Shown here piece after piece: positions 7,445-21,917 of a DNA stretch of 32,710 nt. Positions within the stretch are counted from its first letter, which is position 1, and each line of letters begins with the position of its first letter. The DNA comes from Anaerolineales bacterium. GTDB lineage: Bacteria; Chloroflexota; Anaerolineae; Anaerolineales; Villigracilaceae. The stretch is from assembly GCA_014860745.1 (NCBI GenBank), contig JACZJC010000015.1, forward strand, positions 1 to 32,710, written 5' to 3'. Position numbers and translations under genes: made by a program. The notes beneath the pieces were generated by a model. The model was not told the DNA's origin. It worked only from the letters and a program-made list of their open reading frames with translations, and ran no database searches.

Positions 7445-7591
7445 TTTTGCGCCAATTACCTTTTACTTATGAATGATTTATCTATATGACAACTCCCACT
7501 CGTATCGAACATGACTTGCAGCCAAAGCCATCATGCCTCCGCCTGCTCGGAAAAGACCAGACAACACGGATCTTAGATAGGAGTAAAGATT

Positions 7592-9040
7592 ATGGCAAAT
7601 AAAACATCGCTGACTGTCATTCAACTGAACGATAGTCATGCCTATTTTGATCTACACCAGGAGCTGTTCTGGCAGGGTGGTCAGGCAGCCTATCGCCCTG
7701 CGGGAGGATATGCCCGCATTGCCGCAATCGTCAACCAGATTCGGGCTGAAAGGCAAGATCATGTTCTGTTTTGCGACTGCGGTGATACGCTGCATGGCAC
7801 GTATCCCGCCCTGAAGACGCAGGGACAGGCATTGATCCCCATTTTGAATTCATTGGGTCTCGATGCAATGACAGCCCACTGGGAATTTGCTTATGGTCCG
7901 GAGATATTCAAGCAGCGCGTAGCAGAACTCAACTATCCGATGCTTGCGATCAATATTTATAATAAAGCGACGAAGGAGCGGCCTTTCCCGACATTCAGCG
8001 TAAAGGAGATCGGCGGTTTGCGAATTGGTCTTGTGGGTATTGCCTGCAATATTATAGACAAGACCATGCCGCCCTCCTACAGTGAAGGACTGGAGTTCAC
8101 TCTTGGTCGGGAGGAACTTCCTTCAATTATTGATATTTTACGCACTCAAGAGCATGTAGACCTGATCGTTCTCATCTCGCACCTCGGGTTTTCCCAAGAC
8201 ATGCAGCTTATGTCAGAGGTGCAGGGTATTGATGTTTGTCTGAGTGGACACACTCATAACCGCCTTTATAAACCGGCACTCCAGGGGAAAACGGTGGTAA
8301 TACAATCGGGCTGCCACGGTTCCTTCCTGGGTCGCTTGGATTTGGAAATTGAGGGAGGAAATGTTGTTGACTACCGACACCAATTGATTGAGGTGGAACG
8401 CAATATCAAGCCTGATCCCATAGTAGATGACCTTGTCCGACACGCACTCGCGCCTTTCCAGGAGGAATTGTCAACGGTTGTGGGTGAAACGACGACTGCG
8501 CTTAACCGATCCACCACGCTGGAAACGACGATGGACAATTTCTTGCTGCAGGCGCTGCTGGAAAGCACGGGTGCTCAAATGGCATTCTCGAATGGTTGGC
8601 GCTTCGGCGCTCCGATAATACCCGGAGACGTCACAGTGAATGACCTGTATAACATGATCCCGATGAACCCGCCCATCTCAACGGTCGAGATCACGGGCGA
8701 GGAAATTGTCGCGATGCTGGAGGAGAATCTGGAACGGACGTTTGCGCGCAACCCGTACAATCAAATGGGCGGTTACGTCAAACGTAGTCTGGGTTTCAAC
8801 GCCTATATTAAGATCGAAAACCCACCCGGGCAGCGCGTCCAGCAAGTATTTGTAGGCGACGAACTACTGCAATCTGGACGCCATTACCCCGCGTCCTTTG
8901 TCACCGAACAAGGTGTTGCAAAAAAGTACGGTCGTAATCGTCAACAGCATACAGAGCACATCATAGACGCGCTTAGAGGTTATCTGGCTAAGCACCACCC
9001 GCTGAAGGTGGAACTTCAAGGCACGTTCGTCGCGGTATAA
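7592..9040 (+). CDS. Metallophosphatase / 5'-nucleotidase family protein, SoxB-like
   Basis: A 482-residue two-domain enzyme. The N-terminal calcineurin-like domain shows QLNDSHAYF (11-19), CDCGDTLHGT (61-70), AHWEFAYG (95-102), a His in LISHLGFS, and SGHTHNR (218-224). The C-terminal 5'-nucleotidase domain runs from about 285 to the end (MDNFLLQALLESTGAQMAFSNG; NDLYNMIPMNPP). Usual 5'-nucleotidases have GNHEFD at the third motif; the HWEF form here is, as I recall, that of the thiosulfohydrolase SoxB. There is no signal peptide, so it should be cytoplasmic, unlike SoxB or UshA, and no sox genes are present. A ribosome site TAGGAG precedes the ATG. Substrate unknown: nucleotides or another phospho/sulfo ester. 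Confidence 0.85.
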   Translation: MANKTSLTVIQLNDSHAYFDLHQELFWQGGQAAYRPAGGYARIAAIVNQIRAERQDHVLFCDCGDTLHGTYPALKTQGQALIPILNSLGLDAMTAHWEFAYGPEIFKQRVAELNYPMLAINIYNKATKERPFPTFSVKEIGGLRIGLVGIACNIIDKTMPPSYSEGLEFTLGREELPSIIDILRTQEHVDLIVLISHLGFSQDMQLMSEVQGIDVCLSGHTHNRLYKPALQGKTVVIQSGCHGSFLGRLDLEIEGGNVVDYRHQLIEVERNIKPDPIVDDLVRHALAPFQEELSTVVGETTTALNRSTTLETTMDNFLLQALLESTGAQMAFSNGWRFGAPIIPGDVTVNDLYNMIPMNPPISTVEITGEEIVAMLEENLERTFARNPYNQMGGYVKRSLGFNAYIKIENPPGQRVQQVFVGDELLQSGRHYPASFVTEQGVAKKYGRNRQQHTEHIIDALRGYLAKHHPLKVELQGTFVAV

Positions 9041-15107: not shown

Positions 15108-15650
15108 ATGAAAAAAACAGACCTCCGCCAGCAAGCTGAAGCGAAACTGAGCAAGCGCAAGAAATCTCCTGCAACGGACGCGAACGCGGATCCCCTGCGC
15201 CTGATCCACGAATTGGAAGTGCATCAGATCGAATTGGAAATGCAAAACGAGGAACTGCTGCAAGCGAACGCGGAGTTGGAATCGACGCTCAGTCAGTACG
15301 CTGAATTGTATGCCTTTGCTTCGGCAGGTTACTTCACACTGACGCGCGATGGTACGATCCGCCGCGCTAATTTAACAGCTGCGAAACTCATGGGCGTGGG
15401 GCTTAGTGAACTGATCCAACGACGCTTTGCTGTGTTTATTTCCCCTGAGTCGCGCATCCCTTTCAGCGCTTTTCTTGACAGGGTATTTACAAGCAGCAAT
15501 AAAGAAACCTGCGAAGTTGCGATCCATAAAGACGGATATGATCCGCTTTGGGTGCAAATCGAAGCCATCGTTGATCCTTCGGGTGGGCAGGATGGATTAT
15601 GCTATGCCATGGTGAGCGAAATCACCGACCGCAAAGCCAGGAAGCAGTAA
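15108..15650 (+). CDS. PAS-domain protein, 180 aa, no output domain
   Basis: Residues about 25-65 form a helix with a coiled-coil run (LEVHQIELEMQNEELLQANAELE). It is followed by one PAS domain (about 66-175) with the pattern YAFASAGYFTLTRDGTIRRANLTAAKLMG and ending YAMVSEITDRKARKQ. The IHELEVHQIELEMQNEEL start is common in PAS/PAC proteins fused to histidine kinases or cyclases, but here the protein stops directly after the PAS domain. It follows the CheB-CheR fusion by 46 bases and has AAAAGGAAA before its ATG. A sensor adaptor that pairs with another signalling protein through its coiled coil is plausible. It may also be a truncated kinase. Confidence 0.85.
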   Translation: MKKTDLRQQAEAKLSKRKKSPATDANADPLRLIHELEVHQIELEMQNEELLQANAELESTLSQYAELYAFASAGYFTLTRDGTIRRANLTAAKLMGVGLSELIQRRFAVFISPESRIPFSAFLDRVFTSSNKETCEVAIHKDGYDPLWVQIEAIVDPSGGQDGLCYAMVSEITDRKARKQ

Positions 15651-15899: not shown

Positions 15900-15941
15900 A
15901 AACATACCCTGACCGATGGATGCGGTCAGGGTATGTTTTTT
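15900..15941 (+). terminator. Rho-independent terminator before kaiC
   Basis: A perfect 15-bp stem (AAACATACCCTGACC / GGTCAGGGTATGTTT) with a 9-base loop and a run of six T at 15936-15941. It separates the CheB-CheR/PAS transcript from kaiC, so kaiC should have its own promoter within the next 118 bases. Confidence 0.88.
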
Positions 15942-16059
15942 ATAAAATCAAAAGGGAGATACGCGTCCTCGACCTTAAACGTGGGGTAAATGAACCACCT
16001 GGCGAATCTGGTCAGCCGCCGCGCCATCCCAGCGCAGATTTTCAGGATGAAAAGGATAA

Positions 16060-17784
16060 ATGAACATGCCAAAAGCAAGAGGGCAACTACCCAAAGCGCC
16101 AACGGGCATCCAGGGGCTGGACGAAATCACGGGCGGCGGATTGCCCAAAGGCAGACCGACACTTGTCTGCGGCAGCGCAGGCTGTGGCAAGACCCTCCTC
16201 GCCATGGAGTTTCTGGTACGCGGCGCGATCCAGTTCAACGAGCCGGGCGTCTTTATGGCATTCGAAGAGACCGCCCAGGACCTGACCCAGAACGTCGCTT
16301 CACTGGGTTTCGACTTGAAAGATCTGATCGCGCGTAAAAAGATGGTGCTCGATTTTGTGTACATCGAGCGCAGTGAGATCGAAGAGACCGGTGAATATGA
16401 TCTGGAAGGGTTGTTCATTCGCCTCGGACATGCCATTGACTCCATCGGTGCCAAGCGCGTCGTGCTGGATACCATCGAGTCTCTTTTCTCCGGCTTGCCC
16501 AATCCGCTCATCCTGCGCGCCGAACTGCGCCGCCTCTTCCGCTGGCTGAAAGCCAAAGGTGTGAGCGCCATTATCACCGGCGAACGCGGCGAAGGCACGC
16601 TGACACGCCAGGGGTTGGAAGAGTACGTCTCCGACTGCGTCATCGTGCTCGACCATCGCGCGAACGAGCAGGTCTCCTCGCGGCGCTTGCGCGTGGTAAA
16701 GTATCGCGGCTCCACGCACGGCACGAACGAGTATCCATTTCTGATCGACGAAAACGGTATTTCGGTATTACCGGTCACCTCGCTCGGCTTGCAACAGATC
16801 GCCTCCACCGGACGCATTCCCTCCGGCATTCCACGCCTTGATGCAATGCTGGGTGGCGCGGGCTATTACCGTGGCAGCAGCATACTGATCTCCGGCACAG
16901 CGGGCACCGGCAAGAGTAGTCTCGCCGCGCACTTTGCCGCAGCCGCCTGCCGTCGCGGTGAACGTGCCCTTTATTTTGCCTTCGAGGAATCTCCCAGCCA
17001 GATCATACGCAACATGCATTCCATCGGGATCGACCTGCAAGTGTGGGTGAAGAAAGGTTTGCTCCAGTTTCAGGCGAACCGCCCCACGTTTGCGGGGCTG
17101 GAAATGCACCTGACAATGATGCACAAAGCGATCAACACCTTCAAACCGCAGGTTGTGATCGTAGACCCGTTGAACAGTTTCGTCATCGGTGGCAATGAGA
17201 TCGAGGTCAAAGCCATGTTGATGCGGCTGGTGGATTTCCTGAAAATGAATCGGATCACCGGTTTGTTCACCAATTTGACTTCGGGCGGGAGTGCGCTCGA
17301 GCAAACCGATATCGCCATTTCGTCCCTGATCGACACCTGGCTGTTACTGCGCGATATCGAAATCGGCGGCGAGCGCAATCGCGGCTTGTACATCCTGAAA
17401 TCACGCGGCATGGCGCACTCGAACCAGATCCGCGAGTTTCTGCTCACCGACAACGGTGTGGAATTACGAGATGTATATGTCGGTCCGAGCGGCGTGCTGA
17501 CCGGCTCGGCGCGTCTGGCACAGGAGGCGCAAGAGCAAGCCGCGCAGATGATGCACGAGCAGGAAGTGGAACGACGAAAACTGGAACTGGAACGCAAGCG
17601 CAGGGTAATAGAAGCGCAGATCGCCGCGATGCGCGCCGAGTTTGAGGCGCAGGAAGCCGAGACGTTGAACATCATCGGGCAGGAACATGCGCGGGAAGCG
17701 CACCTGTCGCAGGAGCGTGCGGACATGGCGCTGAGTCGCAAGGCGGATGCGAAACCGAACCAACACAAAAGAGGCTCGAAATGA
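16060..17784 (+). CDS. kaiC: KaiC-like ATPase / circadian clock-type protein with coiled-coil tail
   Basis: 574 residues with two tandem RecA-type domains. Domain CI has Walker A GSAGCGKT (38-45) and paired catalytic Glu in FEET (Glu69-Glu70). Domain CII has Walker [10 protein letters not shown] (279-287) and Glu309-Glu310 in FEES. The phosphorylation region of CII reads [12 protein letters not shown], with Ser421-Ser422 where the cyanobacterial protein has Ser-Thr. The C-terminus replaces the short A-loop tail by about 75 residues rich in Glu, Gln, Arg and Ala ([17 protein letters not shown]) that look like a long coiled coil. Cyanobacterial KaiC is about 519 residues. kaiB overlaps its stop by 4 bases. 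No kaiA is present, so oscillation is doubtful; a timer or stress-signalling role is possible. Confidence 0.93.
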
Positions 17785-18086
17785 AAACGAAATCGACCAG
17801 ATCAAAATCGGACGTCTTTCTCCTGCGCCTGTATGTTGCCGGGCAAACGCCCAAATCAATGATGGCTTTTGCCAATCTCAAGAAAATTTGCGAAGAACAT
17901 CTTGCAGGGCGGTACGAAATCGAAGTGGTGGACTTGCTGAAAAACCCAACACTGGCGAGCGGCGACCAGATCCTTGCGATTCCGACCCTGGTGCGGAAAC
18001 TGCCCGAGCCCGTGCGCAAGATCATTGGCGATCTCTCCAACACCGAACGCGTGCTGATCGGGCTGGATCTGCTGCCGCGGGAATGA
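17781..18086 (+). CDS. kaiB: KaiB-like protein, first copy
   Basis: 101 residues with the thioredoxin-like KaiB pattern [41 protein letters not shown], and the fold-switch end [20 protein letters not shown] followed by ERVLIGLDL. It begins in the ATGA overlap with kaiC, so its translation is probably coupled. KaiB binds the CI ring of KaiC after changing fold. Length fits the usual 100-110 residues. This copy differs from the next at many positions, e.g. [12 protein letters not shown] here against YQQPQLAQGEQ in the second. Confidence 0.93.
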
Positions 18087-18095
18087 GAGGATCTC

Positions 18096-18437
18096 ATGCC
18101 AAAAAAGCAAGTGCGCGATTCGACCCAGGAGTTTGAACGGGCGCGGGTCCGCGCACAGAAAACACCCTATGTCTTAAAGTTGTATGTCACCGGCACAACA
18201 CCGCAGTCCGCGCGCGCCATCGCCAACATCAAAAAACTCTGCGAGATACACCTGAAAGGGCGCTACGAGCTGGATGTGGTCGATCTATATCAACAGCCCC
18301 AATTGGCGCAGGGCGAGCAGATCATCGCCGCGCCAACGCTCATCAAGAAATTGCCGCTCCCACAGCGCCGTATCATCGGCGATATGTCAAAGAGCGAGCG
18401 CGTGCTGGCGGGATTGGATCTGCAAAAGAAAGCCTGA
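18096..18437 (+). CDS. kaiB: KaiB-like protein, second copy
   Basis: 113 residues. After a charged N-terminal extension of about 22 residues (rich in Lys, Arg, Gln) comes LKLYVTGTTPQSARAIANIK, GRYELDVVDLYQQPQLAQ and APTLIKKLPLPQRRIIGDMS, ending ERVLAGLDLQKKA. It is closer to consensus KaiB than the first copy. It starts 9 bases after the first kaiB stop with GAGAGGAT as ribosome site, clearly in the same operon. Two paralogues side by side suggest distinct partners or different fold-switching behaviour, which is inference. Confidence 0.93.
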   Translation: MPKKQVRDSTQEFERARVRAQKTPYVLKLYVTGTTPQSARAIANIKKLCEIHLKGRYELDVVDLYQQPQLAQGEQIIAAPTLIKKLPLPQRRIIGDMSKSERVLAGLDLQKKA

Positions 18438-18471
18438 TTACAATTTATGATTTGCGCCACATAGGATTCAA

Positions 18472-19635
18472 ATGCGTATAAAAACCGCACTCCCAACTCA
18501 AAAGCAACTGATGGACAAAAACGCCGACCTGCGTGCGCAGTTGGATGAAGCCGAAGACACGTTGCGCGCCATTCGCAGCGGTGAGGTGGATGCGCTCGTC
18601 GTCTCGGGCGTGGGCGGCGACCAGATCTTTACGCTCAAGGGCGCCGAACTTCCCTACCGCGTATTGATCGAGGATATGAACGAAGGCGCGCTGACCCTGG
18701 CGATGGACGGCGTGATTTTATTTGCCAACCGCTGCTTTGCCGAAATGCTCAAGACGCCGCTCGAAAAGGTGATCGGTTCCACAGTCCACACCTGGATCGC
18801 CCCTGATAACCAGGGAACACTTCGGGCGCTGCTGCAAAAAGGCGCAGAAGAGCAATGCCGCGATGAACTGGTTCTCACCGCCAGTGACGGGACACAGATA
18901 CCGGTCAATCTTTCGGTGAATCGCCTGTCTGTGGAAGGGTCGCCCGATTGCTTCGGCCTGGTGGCAGCCGACCTGACCGAGCAGAAGAGACGCAACGAAG
19001 CGATTGCCGCCGCCGAAAAGTCGGCACGCGAGATGTTGGAAGAACGACAACGATTGGCGCACGACCTGCATGACGCCGTCAACCAGACACTCTTCTCCGC
19101 CAGCCTGATTGCCGAAGTCCTGCCGCGGATGTGGGAAAAGGATCAGGCGGAGGCGCGGCGATCCCTCGATGACCTGCGCCGCTTGACGCGCGGAGCGCTG
19201 GCTGAGATGCGCGGACTGTTGGCCGAACTGCAACCCTCCACGTTGACCGATTCAGACCTAGGTGATTTGTTGCGTCAGTTGGGAAATGCGCTCTCAGGTC
19301 GTACCGACATCCCGGTCATTGTTACCATTACAGGAAAGTTCAGCCTCCCTTCTGAAATCCAGATAACCTTCTATCGTGTCTGCCAGGAAGCGCTGCTTAA
19401 TATCGCCAAGCATGCCAAAACCAGCAGGGTTGAGATAAACCTGCAGCAAGATGGAGATGTGATCGAACTGCGTATTCGTGACAACGGCCAGGGATTTGAC
19501 CCTGAACGATCTGCCGTTTCCGGTCACCATGGCTTGAGCATGATGAAAGAACGCGCTGAAGCAGTGGGAGCGCTATTATCCGTCACAAGCCAACCCAGTC
19601 ACGGGACTGAACTTGCCCTCCGTTGGAAAAAATAG
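18472..19635 (+). CDS. PAS sensor histidine kinase, NarL-type (HisKA_3)
   Basis: 387 residues without membrane helices, so cytoplasmic. An N-terminal coiled coil (LRAQLDEAEDTLRAIRSGEVDALVV) is followed by a PAS domain (about 60-170). Then comes a HisKA_3 dimerisation helix with ERQRLAHDLHDAVNQTLF, where the LHD His (His200) is the likely phospho-acceptor, and an HATPase domain with YRVCQEALLNIAKHA (N box), DNGQGFD (G1) and HHGLSMMKERAEAVG (G2). It follows kaiB by 34 bases in the same direction. HK genes near kaiBC in non-cyanobacterial genomes probably transmit the Kai signal, in analogy with SasA, though SasA has a KaiB-like sensor and this one has PAS. Its partner response regulator downstream is broken. 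Confidence 0.92.
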   Translation: MRIKTALPTQKQLMDKNADLRAQLDEAEDTLRAIRSGEVDALVVSGVGGDQIFTLKGAELPYRVLIEDMNEGALTLAMDGVILFANRCFAEMLKTPLEKVIGSTVHTWIAPDNQGTLRALLQKGAEEQCRDELVLTASDGTQIPVNLSVNRLSVEGSPDCFGLVAADLTEQKRRNEAIAAAEKSAREMLEERQRLAHDLHDAVNQTLFSASLIAEVLPRMWEKDQAEARRSLDDLRRLTRGALAEMRGLLAELQPSTLTDSDLGDLLRQLGNALSGRTDIPVIVTITGKFSLPSEIQITFYRVCQEALLNIAKHAKTSRVEINLQQDGDVIELRIRDNGQGFDPERSAVSGHHGLSMMKERAEAVGALLSVTSQPSHGTELALRWKK

Positions 19636-19648
19636 AAAAACAGACCCT

Positions 19649-19850
19649 ATGAAAACTCCCCCAACCAAACCCATTCGAATCATGCTTGTTGATGATCATA
19701 CGATGGCCCGCCGGGGACTGGCAACATTCTTGAAAGTCTTCAACGATTTACAGCTGGTGGGTGAAGCCGAAAGCGACGGGGCTTGACCTGACGGAACGCG
19801 AGCGTGAAGTCTTATCTTTGATGATCGAAGGGTTGAATGATTCTGCATAG
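19649..19850 (+). pseudogene. Remnant of a NarL/FixJ-type response regulator (internal deletion and frameshift)
   Basis: The ATG at 19649 opens a receiver domain start: PIRIMLVDDHTMARRGLATF with the acidic pair Asp-Asp, then FNDLQLVGEAESDGA and a stop at 19784-19786. Shifting the frame by one base gives GLDLTEREREVLSLMIEGLNDSA and a stop at 19848-19850, which is the opening of a LuxR-type helix-turn-helix. So the phospho-acceptor Asp region, the rest of the receiver, the linker and most of the HTH are gone. The deletion joins residue about 43 to what should be residue about 145. It sits 13 bases after the kinase gene, as its natural partner would. No product is expected to work. Confidence 0.85.
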
Positions 19851-19962
19851 GAACCTGCCTGTAGTGATGGATTTCTTGGATCAGTATAAAGCAGGCAAGC
19901 TCTGGGATCAGACAAGCTGTCGTAGATAGAAAAAGTGGATTGATCATTTACGGGAATGTTTT

Positions 19963-20005
19963 AAACGAAAACACCCCTATACGTGGGGGTGTTCATTCGT
20001 TTTTA
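19963..20005 (+). terminator. Rho-independent terminator after the kai/kinase operon
   Basis: Core stem AACACCCC / GGGGTGTT with an 8-base loop, extended by AAACGA / TCGTTT through a small internal bulge, then a run of six T at 20000-20005. Confidence 0.82.
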
Positions 20006-20046
20006 GATTTTTATTCTCTATCTGGTGGGCATAAACCCGACGGGCC

Positions 20047-20107
20047 TGAATTTATACCCGTATACCAGATATGTACCCCGCTGGGCAGATTAGATTGCGG
20101 TTGTGAG
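20047..20107 (+). repeat. Dispersed ~60-bp repeat, copy 2
   Basis: Matches 12018-12078 (AATTTATACCCGT-TACCAGATA-GTACCC, then TGGGCAG and GATTGCGG). It lies about 45 bases past a terminator, just as copy 1 does. Confidence 0.65.
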
Positions 20108-20500
20108 ATGGAAAATTAACTATTACGCATGAATGCTCGAATACTGCCTTCTACATTTTAGCAGGTTCGATATTCTGGTATCACTGCCCTGTCGTCAACC
20201 GCTGAATGTGCCTGAGTACGAATAGTTTTTCAAAAGCTATTACGCCCTAATAACTAATGGAGCGTAATAGCTACATGATAGATATAAATCCTTGGAAAAG
20301 AAGTGTACACAATCGACCATATTTTTCATGCCAAACTTGAAAAAATAGGCTAATCATGAGATCCACTATAAGGTTTTTGGAGGGCTATGCTAGAAAACAT
20401 ACGGCATATCATCAAGCGTTATAGATAAGCTTTGTAGAGAGTTTTACACAGGCGATTACCTCCTTCCAAAAAGGAGGTAATCGCCTGTGTTGGTTTTTGT
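20107..20500 (+). ncRNA. Candidate untranslated RNA ending at a strong terminator
   Basis: About 390 bases between two terminators without an ORF. It contains a perfect 11-bp hairpin (AGCTATTACGC / GCGTAATAGCT at 20235-20272, loop of 16) and ends in the 20-bp terminator hairpin at 20446-20490. The promoter and true 5' end cannot be placed. An alternative is that this is eroded sequence left after gene loss, with an old terminator kept. Confidence 0.3.
20446..20498 (+). terminator. Very strong terminator hairpin, 20-bp perfect stem
   Basis: Left arm ACACAGGCGATTACCTCCTT (20446-20465), loop of five, and an exactly complementary right arm (20471-20490), then TGGTTTTTGT. The right arm contains AAGGAGG, a Shine-Dalgarno-like block that the stem hides. 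Confidence 0.8.
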
Positions 20501-20615
20501 CCCAATTCTTGTGTAAGTAATGTGTACCAATTATAGAGCGTGATCCCTTATAAATTGATCATGGAAGACGATCTGGGTAACTTCAGATCGATATCATCAT
20601 TTTTAAGGAAAGCAC

Positions 20616-21917
20616 ATGAAACTTACTCGTACTGCAATTCAATCCTCCATTCCCTCGCTGACACTACAAAGCAGCGGTTTGGTAATTCTTTTCGCCTTTG
20701 TCCACACGATCAGCGATGCAATCACCAATATGCTCTCAGCACTCCTGCCAACCCTCCAGAGTCAGTTTAATTTATCTGAAACCATACTGGCGTTGCTGGT
20801 GGCAAGCTTATCCTTAAGTGCGCTTGTAACCCAGCCGCTTTTTGGCGCACTTGCTGATCGAGTGGGATATCGCCGCATTGCCGCCCTGGGCGTGATATTC
20901 AATGCAGTCCTCTTCAGCCTGATCGGTATCGTCCCCAATATTTACATCCTGTTCGGATTGATCCTGATCGGAGGGCTGGGGTCATCGGCGTTGCATCCCG
21001 CAATGGCGAGCATGGCACGTTTGGCGGGTAGAAACAAACCCGATCTAGCCGTTGGGCTTTTTAGCGCTGGTGGAACATTAGGCATAGCCATTGGTCCCAT
21101 TATTATTATAATTTTGTTGTCAAATTTGGGACTGTCATTTACGCCCTGGCTGATGATTCCTGGCATCGTTCTTGGGATTTTGATGTACATTCTGTCGCCG
21201 GCAGATACCCAACCTGCTTCAAATGTTTCAGAAAAAATATTTGATCTCCGCCTCTTAACCGGACCCGTAGGACTCTTATCCCTTACAGGCATTTTAAGTG
21301 GTGTGGCTTTTGTTACCTTTACGAGTGCAATGCCACTCTGGCTTGTTCGGGTTCATTCATTACCCAATGATTCAACCTTGATCGGCTGGACCTTGTCCAC
21401 GTTCTCTCTTGCTGCAGCTGCGGGAGGGATCGCGGGTGGAATGATCAGCAACCGGGTCGGCGTGAAGCGGGTGATCGTCGCATCGACATTACTTGCCCTG
21501 CTGCCACTGTACGCAATCTTTTCTTTGACACCGGGTTCCCTTTTCTACTTTGTGGCGGTCGCTCTGGCAGGCGTATTGATCAACGCAGGAATGCCTTTAT
21601 TGATCGTGATCGCTCAGGACCTGTCTCCGAAAAATGCGGCAGCAGCCTCAGGCATGTTGATGGGCTTTTCAGCCGGAGCAGCAGGATTGGTCTATGTAGG
21701 CATTGGGCGGTTACAGGAAGTGATTGGATTGGCGCCAGCGATGAGCATTGGTTACCTCGCACTCATTGCAGCTGCTGTACTTGCTTCCATTGCGATCAAT
21801 TCACAAGGACCTTCCGCACGGCAGCAACCGGCTCCGATTGAAGGGTGGTCCTGCCTCTGCTCCCCTTGCATGGATCAAAACATTGCCGCTCTCCCGCAGC
21901 GAACCAGAACTTCGTAA
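20616..21917 (+). CDS. MFS transporter, fosmidomycin-resistance (Fsr) type
   Basis: 433 residues with about 12 hydrophobic helices. The first-helix pattern FAFVHTISDAITNMLSALLPTLQSQFNLS and the loop LVTQPLFGALADRVGYRR match the Fsr/YnfM-like branch of the major facilitator superfamily; LGSSALHPAMASMA is another signature of this branch. It should act as a proton-driven efflux pump in the cytoplasmic membrane; substrate unknown. The last 30 residues are an unusual soluble tail with two Cys (CLCSPC). Start at ATG 20616 with AAGGA upstream. A small unknown gene follows after 21 bases. Confidence 0.88.
   Translation: MKLTRTAIQSSIPSLTLQSSGLVILFAFVHTISDAITNMLSALLPTLQSQFNLSETILALLVASLSLSALVTQPLFGALADRVGYRRIAALGVIFNAVLFSLIGIVPNIYILFGLILIGGLGSSALHPAMASMARLAGRNKPDLAVGLFSAGGTLGIAIGPIIIIILLSNLGLSFTPWLMIPGIVLGILMYILSPADTQPASNVSEKIFDLRLLTGPVGLLSLTGILSGVAFVTFTSAMPLWLVRVHSLPNDSTLIGWTLSTFSLAAAAGGIAGGMISNRVGVKRVIVASTLLALLPLYAIFSLTPGSLFYFVAVALAGVLINAGMPLLIVIAQDLSPKNAAAASGMLMGFSAGAAGLVYVGIGRLQEVIGLAPAMSIGYLALIAAAVLASIAINSQGPSARQQPAPIEGWSCLCSPCMDQNIAALPQRTRTS

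Follow-up and report, generated by a model that had tools for sequence, protein, structure and literature searches.

The histidine kinase gene of a Kai cluster in an Anaerolineales genome is followed by a response-regulator gene that has been broken in two places. We read this locus as a rather likely fossil of an output swap and, as far as sequences can tell, the orphaned kinase probably acts on the regulator of a paralogous kinase/regulator pair. Indeed, the kinase looks functional and the regulator adjoining it is dead, and the kinase therefore probably acts on a different regulator. Throughout, the window is the whole stretch of DNA analyzed (32,710 nt), and G000 is the genome to which it belongs.

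The cluster lies on the plus strand. kaiC (positions 16060 to 17784, 574 aa) matches the Pfam KaiC domain in two stretches (E value 1e-109) and scores above the cut-off of the NCBIfam model PRK09302 (757.8 versus 408 bits) but below that of TIGR02655 (365 of 546 bits). Two kaiB copies follow, encoding 101 aa (17781 to 18086; Pfam KaiB, 4e-28) and 113 aa (18096 to 18437; 9e-26). KaiB1 lies above the NCBIfam PRK09301 cut-off of 110 (115.3) and KaiB2 narrowly below it (103.8), and both are below that of TIGR02654 (107.2 and 98.6 versus 145.3). A double-domain KaiC and KaiB are thus encoded in a single cluster, as expected of a Kai system. The kinase gene (18472 to 19635, 387 aa) comes next. A short PAS protein of 180 aa, in which no output domain was found, is encoded between a CheB-CheR-PAS gene and kaiC (15108 to 15650).

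In PMC3164672, a histidine kinase or a GGDEF/EAL protein is reported to be encoded directly behind kaiC and kaiB in almost all such clusters of noncyanobacterial genomes. The window is similar in that kaiC and kaiB are followed by a signaling gene, but here a NarL-type HisKA_3 half is joined to a PAS module, and the regulator behind the kinase is dead. Similarly, the kinase is Kai linked like that of the cyanobacterial SasA-RpaA system, as described in PMC5520375. Unlike in that system, no KaiB domain was found in the window kinase by Pfam at an E value of ≤1e-2, PAS families being found instead, and no intact regulator adjoins it.

We consider the kinase a fusion because its N- and C-terminal halves match different sets of proteins, with a boundary at about residues 187 to 190. 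The N-terminal PAS module (residues 1 to 186, 18472 to 19029, plus strand; PAS within residues 62 to 173 in Pfam) is 56 to 67% identical to L013 to L020 and is common to other Kai-cluster proteins. These matches stop at kinase residues 189 to 191, and the C-terminal parts of L013 to L020 are dissimilar to that of the window kinase. The catalytic half (19030 to 19632, plus strand) contains HisKA_3 (residues 191 to 258) and HATPase_c (residues 297 to 385), both above their Pfam cut-offs (60.4 versus 24 bits and 49.2 versus 26.4 bits). Both the tree and 65 to 75% identity to 22 nonduplicate unfused loci place it in a NarL-type kinase family. From about residue 187, it matches kinases with PAS, GAF, and HisKA_3 domains (domains taken from two examples). 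The best of these matches start mostly at residues 182 to 188; in another search, those to L010 and L011 started at residues 155 and 158. The best NCBIfam hits of the kinase (MctS, UhpB, LiaS, and NarQ) each remain below the cut-off. By eye, the phospho-acceptor His and the N box, G1, and G2 motifs are all kept, both here and in the closest relative (L009).

Relatives of the PAS module that lie beside kaiB and share the 56 to 67% identity come from Acidobacteriota, Oscillochloris, Gallionella, Syntrophobacterales, and another Anaerolineales genome; those of Desulfobacterales fall within the same range but are cut such that kaiB lies out of view. In a phylum-wide draw, the module was found in 19 of 400 genomes (E value of ≤1e-25), and the loci of this draw match it at 36 to 46% identity. 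For L156, kaiB and kaiC are absent among its matches. L051, L053, and L054 match only part of the module, and L055 and L059 are 44% and 33% identical to it. By Pfam, the module is combined with HisKA_2 in L014, L151, L156, L157, L158, L159, L164, and L165, with HisKA in L013, L150, L153, and L055, and with HisKA plus a receiver in L052 and L160. HD_5 follows a GAF domain in L015, L016, L017, L152, and L154 and also in L054 and L059, which resemble the module less. L019 and the fragment in L051 have no output domain, and L053 has PAS and GAF domains with an HD_5 piece in the next open reading frame, perhaps as a result of a frame split. In this survey, L018 is cut by a contig end, L155 and L161 lie outside the scan, and three pairs of loci (L015/L149, L016/L148, and L020/L052) each represent a single stretch of DNA. 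The module joined to HD_5, which is HD-GYP-like, was seen in Oscillochloris and other Chloroflexota (L015, 4782 to 6848; L016, 2942 to 4990; L017, 5824 to 7869; L152, 2203 to 5940). HD-GYP-like functions concern cyclic-di-GMP, and this combination hints at a cyclic-di-GMP output of Kai systems.

NarX/NarL and UhpB/UhpA are kinase/regulator pairs. Like them, the window combines a HisKA_3 kinase with a REC-LuxR regulator, but its kinase has a different sensor and its regulator is a pseudogene. The same bacterial family also contains pairs of a PAS-GAF-HisKA_3 kinase and a regulator of 211 to 215 aa (e.g., G000:C71 and G037:C6), the catalytic half of which is 65 to 75% identical to that of the window kinase; unlike in the window, their sensor is PAS-GAF and their regulator is intact. 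From among the listed matches, we examined 24 unfused loci, or 22 after removing L010 and L011, which are the DNA of L027 and L028. Directly downstream of the kinase, 21 of the 22 have a regulator match of at least 207 aa without a stop, and the last one (L026) is cut by the contig end. In G037 (L051, 2939 to 7975), an intact NarL-type kinase/regulator pair of this family lies directly upstream of kaiC, behind a GH94 gene, whereas all that is left of the PAS protein encoded after kaiB is a fragment of 112 aa. A link of this kinase family to Kai genes therefore exists in more than one form.

For the fused kinase itself, an order-wide draw of 400 genomes gave four whole-length matches at an E value of ≤1e-98, namely, in the window's own genome, G048, G413, and G370. 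Within the genus, residues 1 to 387 were matched in 2 of 57 genomes, G048 and that of the window; behind these, the longest matches cover about residues 51 to 387 at 32 to 36% identity. A scan of genome contigs gave 13 loci, and the single one near over the whole kinase was L009 (JAUXWL010000251.1, from an Anaerolineales metagenome-assembled genome [MAG]; its contig is also G048:C64). In the tree, the catalytic halves of the four fused kinases group together (98/93) within a clade of 25 rows (97/87), of which the remaining 21 all belong to the window's family. None of the four genomes, which represent this one clade, has an intact regulator directly downstream of the fused kinase; since the four share ancestry, these are not four independent losses. 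A remnant is present behind the kinase in G000 and G048, and nothing recognizable is present in G413 and G370, where searches for regulator remnants in 500 to 600 nt around the 3' ends of the kinase genes gave no match with nhmmer and only chance-level ones with tblastn. The high similarity of the remnant suggests that the regulator loss in the window lineage may be separate from that in G413 and G370.

The remnant opens with a reading frame that has its ATG at 19649, begins with the receiver sequence MKTPPTKPIRIMLVDDHTMARRGL, and stops at a TGA (19784 to 19786). Its 45 codons (19649 to 19783, plus strand), the first of the receiver, are 66.7% identical to residues 1 to 45 of the L011/L028 regulator (nhmmer E value, 1e-29); the corresponding value is 76% for the L009 remnant. 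A piece of a LuxR-type helix-turn-helix (HTH), GLDLTEREREVLSLMIEGL, follows in a different frame (19784 to 19841, plus strand; match at 19767 to 19844, 76.9% identity to residues 147 to 172; E value, 4e-15). When compared to a nucleotide profile (636 positions) that we made from the regulator genes of 13 related loci, among them L026, which is truncated at its contig end, and L010, a duplicate of L027, the window matches only at positions 7 to 123 (1e-29) and 440 to 504 (4e-15) and L009 only at positions 7 to 125 (6e-33) and 445 to 504 (1e-13). Profile positions of about 123 to 125 thus abut positions of about 440 to 445 at a junction located at 19776 to 19783 (plus strand), at the same place and with the same length in L009, and about 320 nt are missing out of frame. 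The phospho-acceptor Asp, residue 57 in the intact paralogue (VLMDMV), falls inside the lost part. Nothing at 19649 to 19841 matches the profile between these two blocks, and no NarL/FixJ receiver with its Asp is left. Neither is a complete in-frame HTH: what remains of it is shifted in frame and breaks off at about residue 172 of 215. At the 3' end, about 43 codons (about 130 nt) have given way to the terminal part of a dispersed repeat. The earlier note had described the out-of-frame deletion that destroys the regulator and removes the Asp, and this description stands; the second lesion, the cut of the HTH by the repeat from about 19830, had escaped it. Further regulator codons that we thought to see by eye in shifted frames downstream of the remnant were discarded, as this stretch aligns to the repeat. 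Taken alone, the remnant is an ordinary pseudogene.

In the kinase gene, 12 substitutions between the window and L009 are nonsynonymous and 22 are synonymous (pN/pS, 0.17; P = 7e-7), and the catalytic half alone gives 8 and 17 (pN/pS, 0.15; P = 5e-6). The kinase of the window lineage is therefore under purifying selection and presumably still signals. In the remnant open reading frame, four changes are nonsynonymous and one is synonymous (pN/pS of 1.25 on only five substitutions), a contrast to the kinase that is not significant (Fisher's exact test, P = 0.14). A relative with the same short form of the regulator does exist, in L009, but we saw no sign that selection keeps it, four of the five changes in 45 codons being nonsynonymous, with the low power that five changes afford. 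Positions 19785 to 19950 differ from L009 by only one mismatch and one gap. A functional RNA was considered there and rejected, since 150-nt windows along 3.5 kb range from 0 to 13 differences anyway. No Rfam match at the gathering score was found on L087, L084, or L009, and window positions 15900 to 20700 gave only two matches, far below that score, at 20422 to 20515.

Which regulator could take the place of the dead one? Intact, closely paralogous kinase/regulator pairs are present in both genomes, at G000:C71 (regulator at 7470 to 8102) and G048:C428. Together with the purifying selection and the kept catalytic motifs, these pairs lend indirect support to the proposal of the earlier note that the kinase uses another regulator. 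The DHp region of the fused kinase is 81% identical to that of the C71 kinase and at most 48% identical to those of the other kinases compared from the same genome, and 29 of 40 residues at the start of the C71 regulator are the same in the remnant. The C71 regulator has 13 matches in this genome at an E value of ≤1e-20, itself included. We judge it the most likely target of the fused kinase, with a candidate orphan regulator, C29:36920-37540, coming second.

No kinase gene was recognized in the 10 kb read around the latter. That the fused kinase phosphorylates a true orphan of this kind seems unlikely to us, as the C29 regulator shares just 39% identity with that of C71, so that a change of specificity would be required, and as its orphan status rests on a crude motif pattern, with few neighbors scanned by Pfam. 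In its favor, its likely ortholog in G048 (C93) has similar surroundings, with no kinase recognized within 7.3 kb, and the closest regulator of G413 (C11:326313-326933, 61%), which is preceded by a gene for a TPR protein, likewise has no recognized kinase in the 10 kb read. Moreover, the REC and GerE domains of the orphan regulators are intact, and L162, L166, and L167 match neither half of the fused kinase. A second regulator of G413 (60%) has its own kinase, and the best one of G370 has no more than 50% identity to that of C71.

It had also been proposed that the whole output path is decaying, in which case the regulator would have gone first, the kinase would be following, and the Kai proteins would be used otherwise. 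For the window lineage, this does not agree with the constraint on the catalytic half and its kept motifs, and we regard general decay as quite improbable. The hints of it come from G413 and G370, both of another family, where the fused kinase lacks both an adjacent regulator and the conserved second glycine in its G1 box (DNGQI in L081, 6103 to 7269; DNGRI in L082, 5304 to 6476), suggesting that kinase activity may be altered or lost. Between these two genomes, dN/dS of the catalytic half is 0.44 (NG86) or 0.68 (YN00), compared to 0.35 for the PAS half, 0.19 for KaiC, 0.15 for KaiB1, and 0.39 for KaiB2. Constraint is thus weaker than on KaiC, the gap to KaiB2 being small, and together with the glycine loss this argues against the fused kinase always staying active; even here, however, dN/dS stays below 1. 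The truncated PAS protein of G037 would also fit decay. Behind the fused kinase of G413, the gene of a MalT-like LuxR regulator of 891 aa starts after 244 nt (L081, 7517 to 10189; 458 of 537 bits with the MalT model).

The lost glycine in G413 and G370 would equally suit a fused protein that needs no regulator and instead modulates the paralogue by forming a heterodimer with the paralogue kinase through their similar DHp helices, for which the 81% identity to the C71 kinase also speaks. We find this very improbable, given that the catalytic motifs of the window kinase are intact and that the next kinase in the G370 stretch read is only 46% identical.

The repeat fragment that replaces the regulator 3' end (about 19830 to 20110, minus strand; borders approximate, from blastn and alignment) belongs to a dispersed unit of about 0.97 kb whose single gene lies on the strand opposite to the kinase. 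Positions 19842 to 20065 are matched in 28 of 57 genus genomes and six times in the window's own genome, this copy included. Compared to the L087 copy, 8 of 11 copies align over 927 to 988 nt and 3 over 496 to 659 nt. For the 245-aa protein of one copy, the sole Pfam hit at an E value of ≤0.01 is a subthreshold HTH_17 (20.4 of 27 bits); a role in defense was rejected, the only PADLOC match being marginal (E value, 0.008). In the copies of L083 to L091, L095, and L096, a conserved hairpin-like stretch lies upstream of the gene. The junction between regulator and repeat falls within a short stretch common to both, around 19830 to 19841. From 20065 on (L009 position 3542), the right flanks of the window and L009 diverge, the window leading towards an MFS transporter and L009 to genes for a ChsH2-like OB-fold protein and a glycosyltransferase. 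Counterparts of these genes are on contig C30 of the window's genome, where no repeat unit was detected next to the one for the ChsH2-like protein. The unit does border this ChsH2-like gene in G011 (L085), its match having the same endpoint there as in L009. The flank difference could reflect recombination between repeat copies, by which the cassette moved, or a misassembly in one genome.

Repeated DNA at one junction, a typical site of misassembly, and the differing flank had made an assembly or binning artifact, also raised by the earlier note, worth considering, but it can be dismissed for the regulator, since the internal deletion is not at a repeat and both junctions recur with identical lengths in L009, a separate MAG that differs from window positions 16525 to 20065 by 128 mismatches over an alignment of 3,542 bases with a single gap (96.4% identity).

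We thus favor a history in which recombination would have joined a Kai-cluster PAS module to a NarL-type HisKA_3 catalytic half, as the two-part homology suggests, and the LuxR-type regulator encoded behind the NarL-type kinase would have been carried along. In the ancestor of the two sampled genomes, the regulator then lost its internal segment and had its 3' end replaced by the repeat, in either order, and the kinase has remained under purifying selection. With the C71 paralogue regulator as the putative target, proposed from the DHp and receiver-start similarities, the Kai-linked signal would enter an existing two-component pathway. That regulator has its own kinase, and it may therefore be insulated from the fused one. 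More tentatively, the KaiB-adjacent PAS module might be a plug for interchangeable outputs (HisKA_3, HisKA_2, HisKA, HisKA plus a receiver, HD_5, or none) which here captured a NarL-type catalytic half and shed the regulator; the Kai timer or switch would then drive a paralogous regulator, the remnant being a record of the rewiring.

Nothing on a Kai kinase that is fused to a HisKA_3 half and accompanied by a dead regulator was found in the literature searched, mostly outside subscription papers, which is weak evidence of novelty. The conclusion of PMC5520375 is that noncyanobacterial Kai proteins must rely on another output path. The locus gives a testable pair in the fused Kai kinase and the regulator of C71. 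It also illustrates a possible route by which such an output may be rewired, in which domains are fused first and the regulator dedicated to the kinase is lost afterwards.
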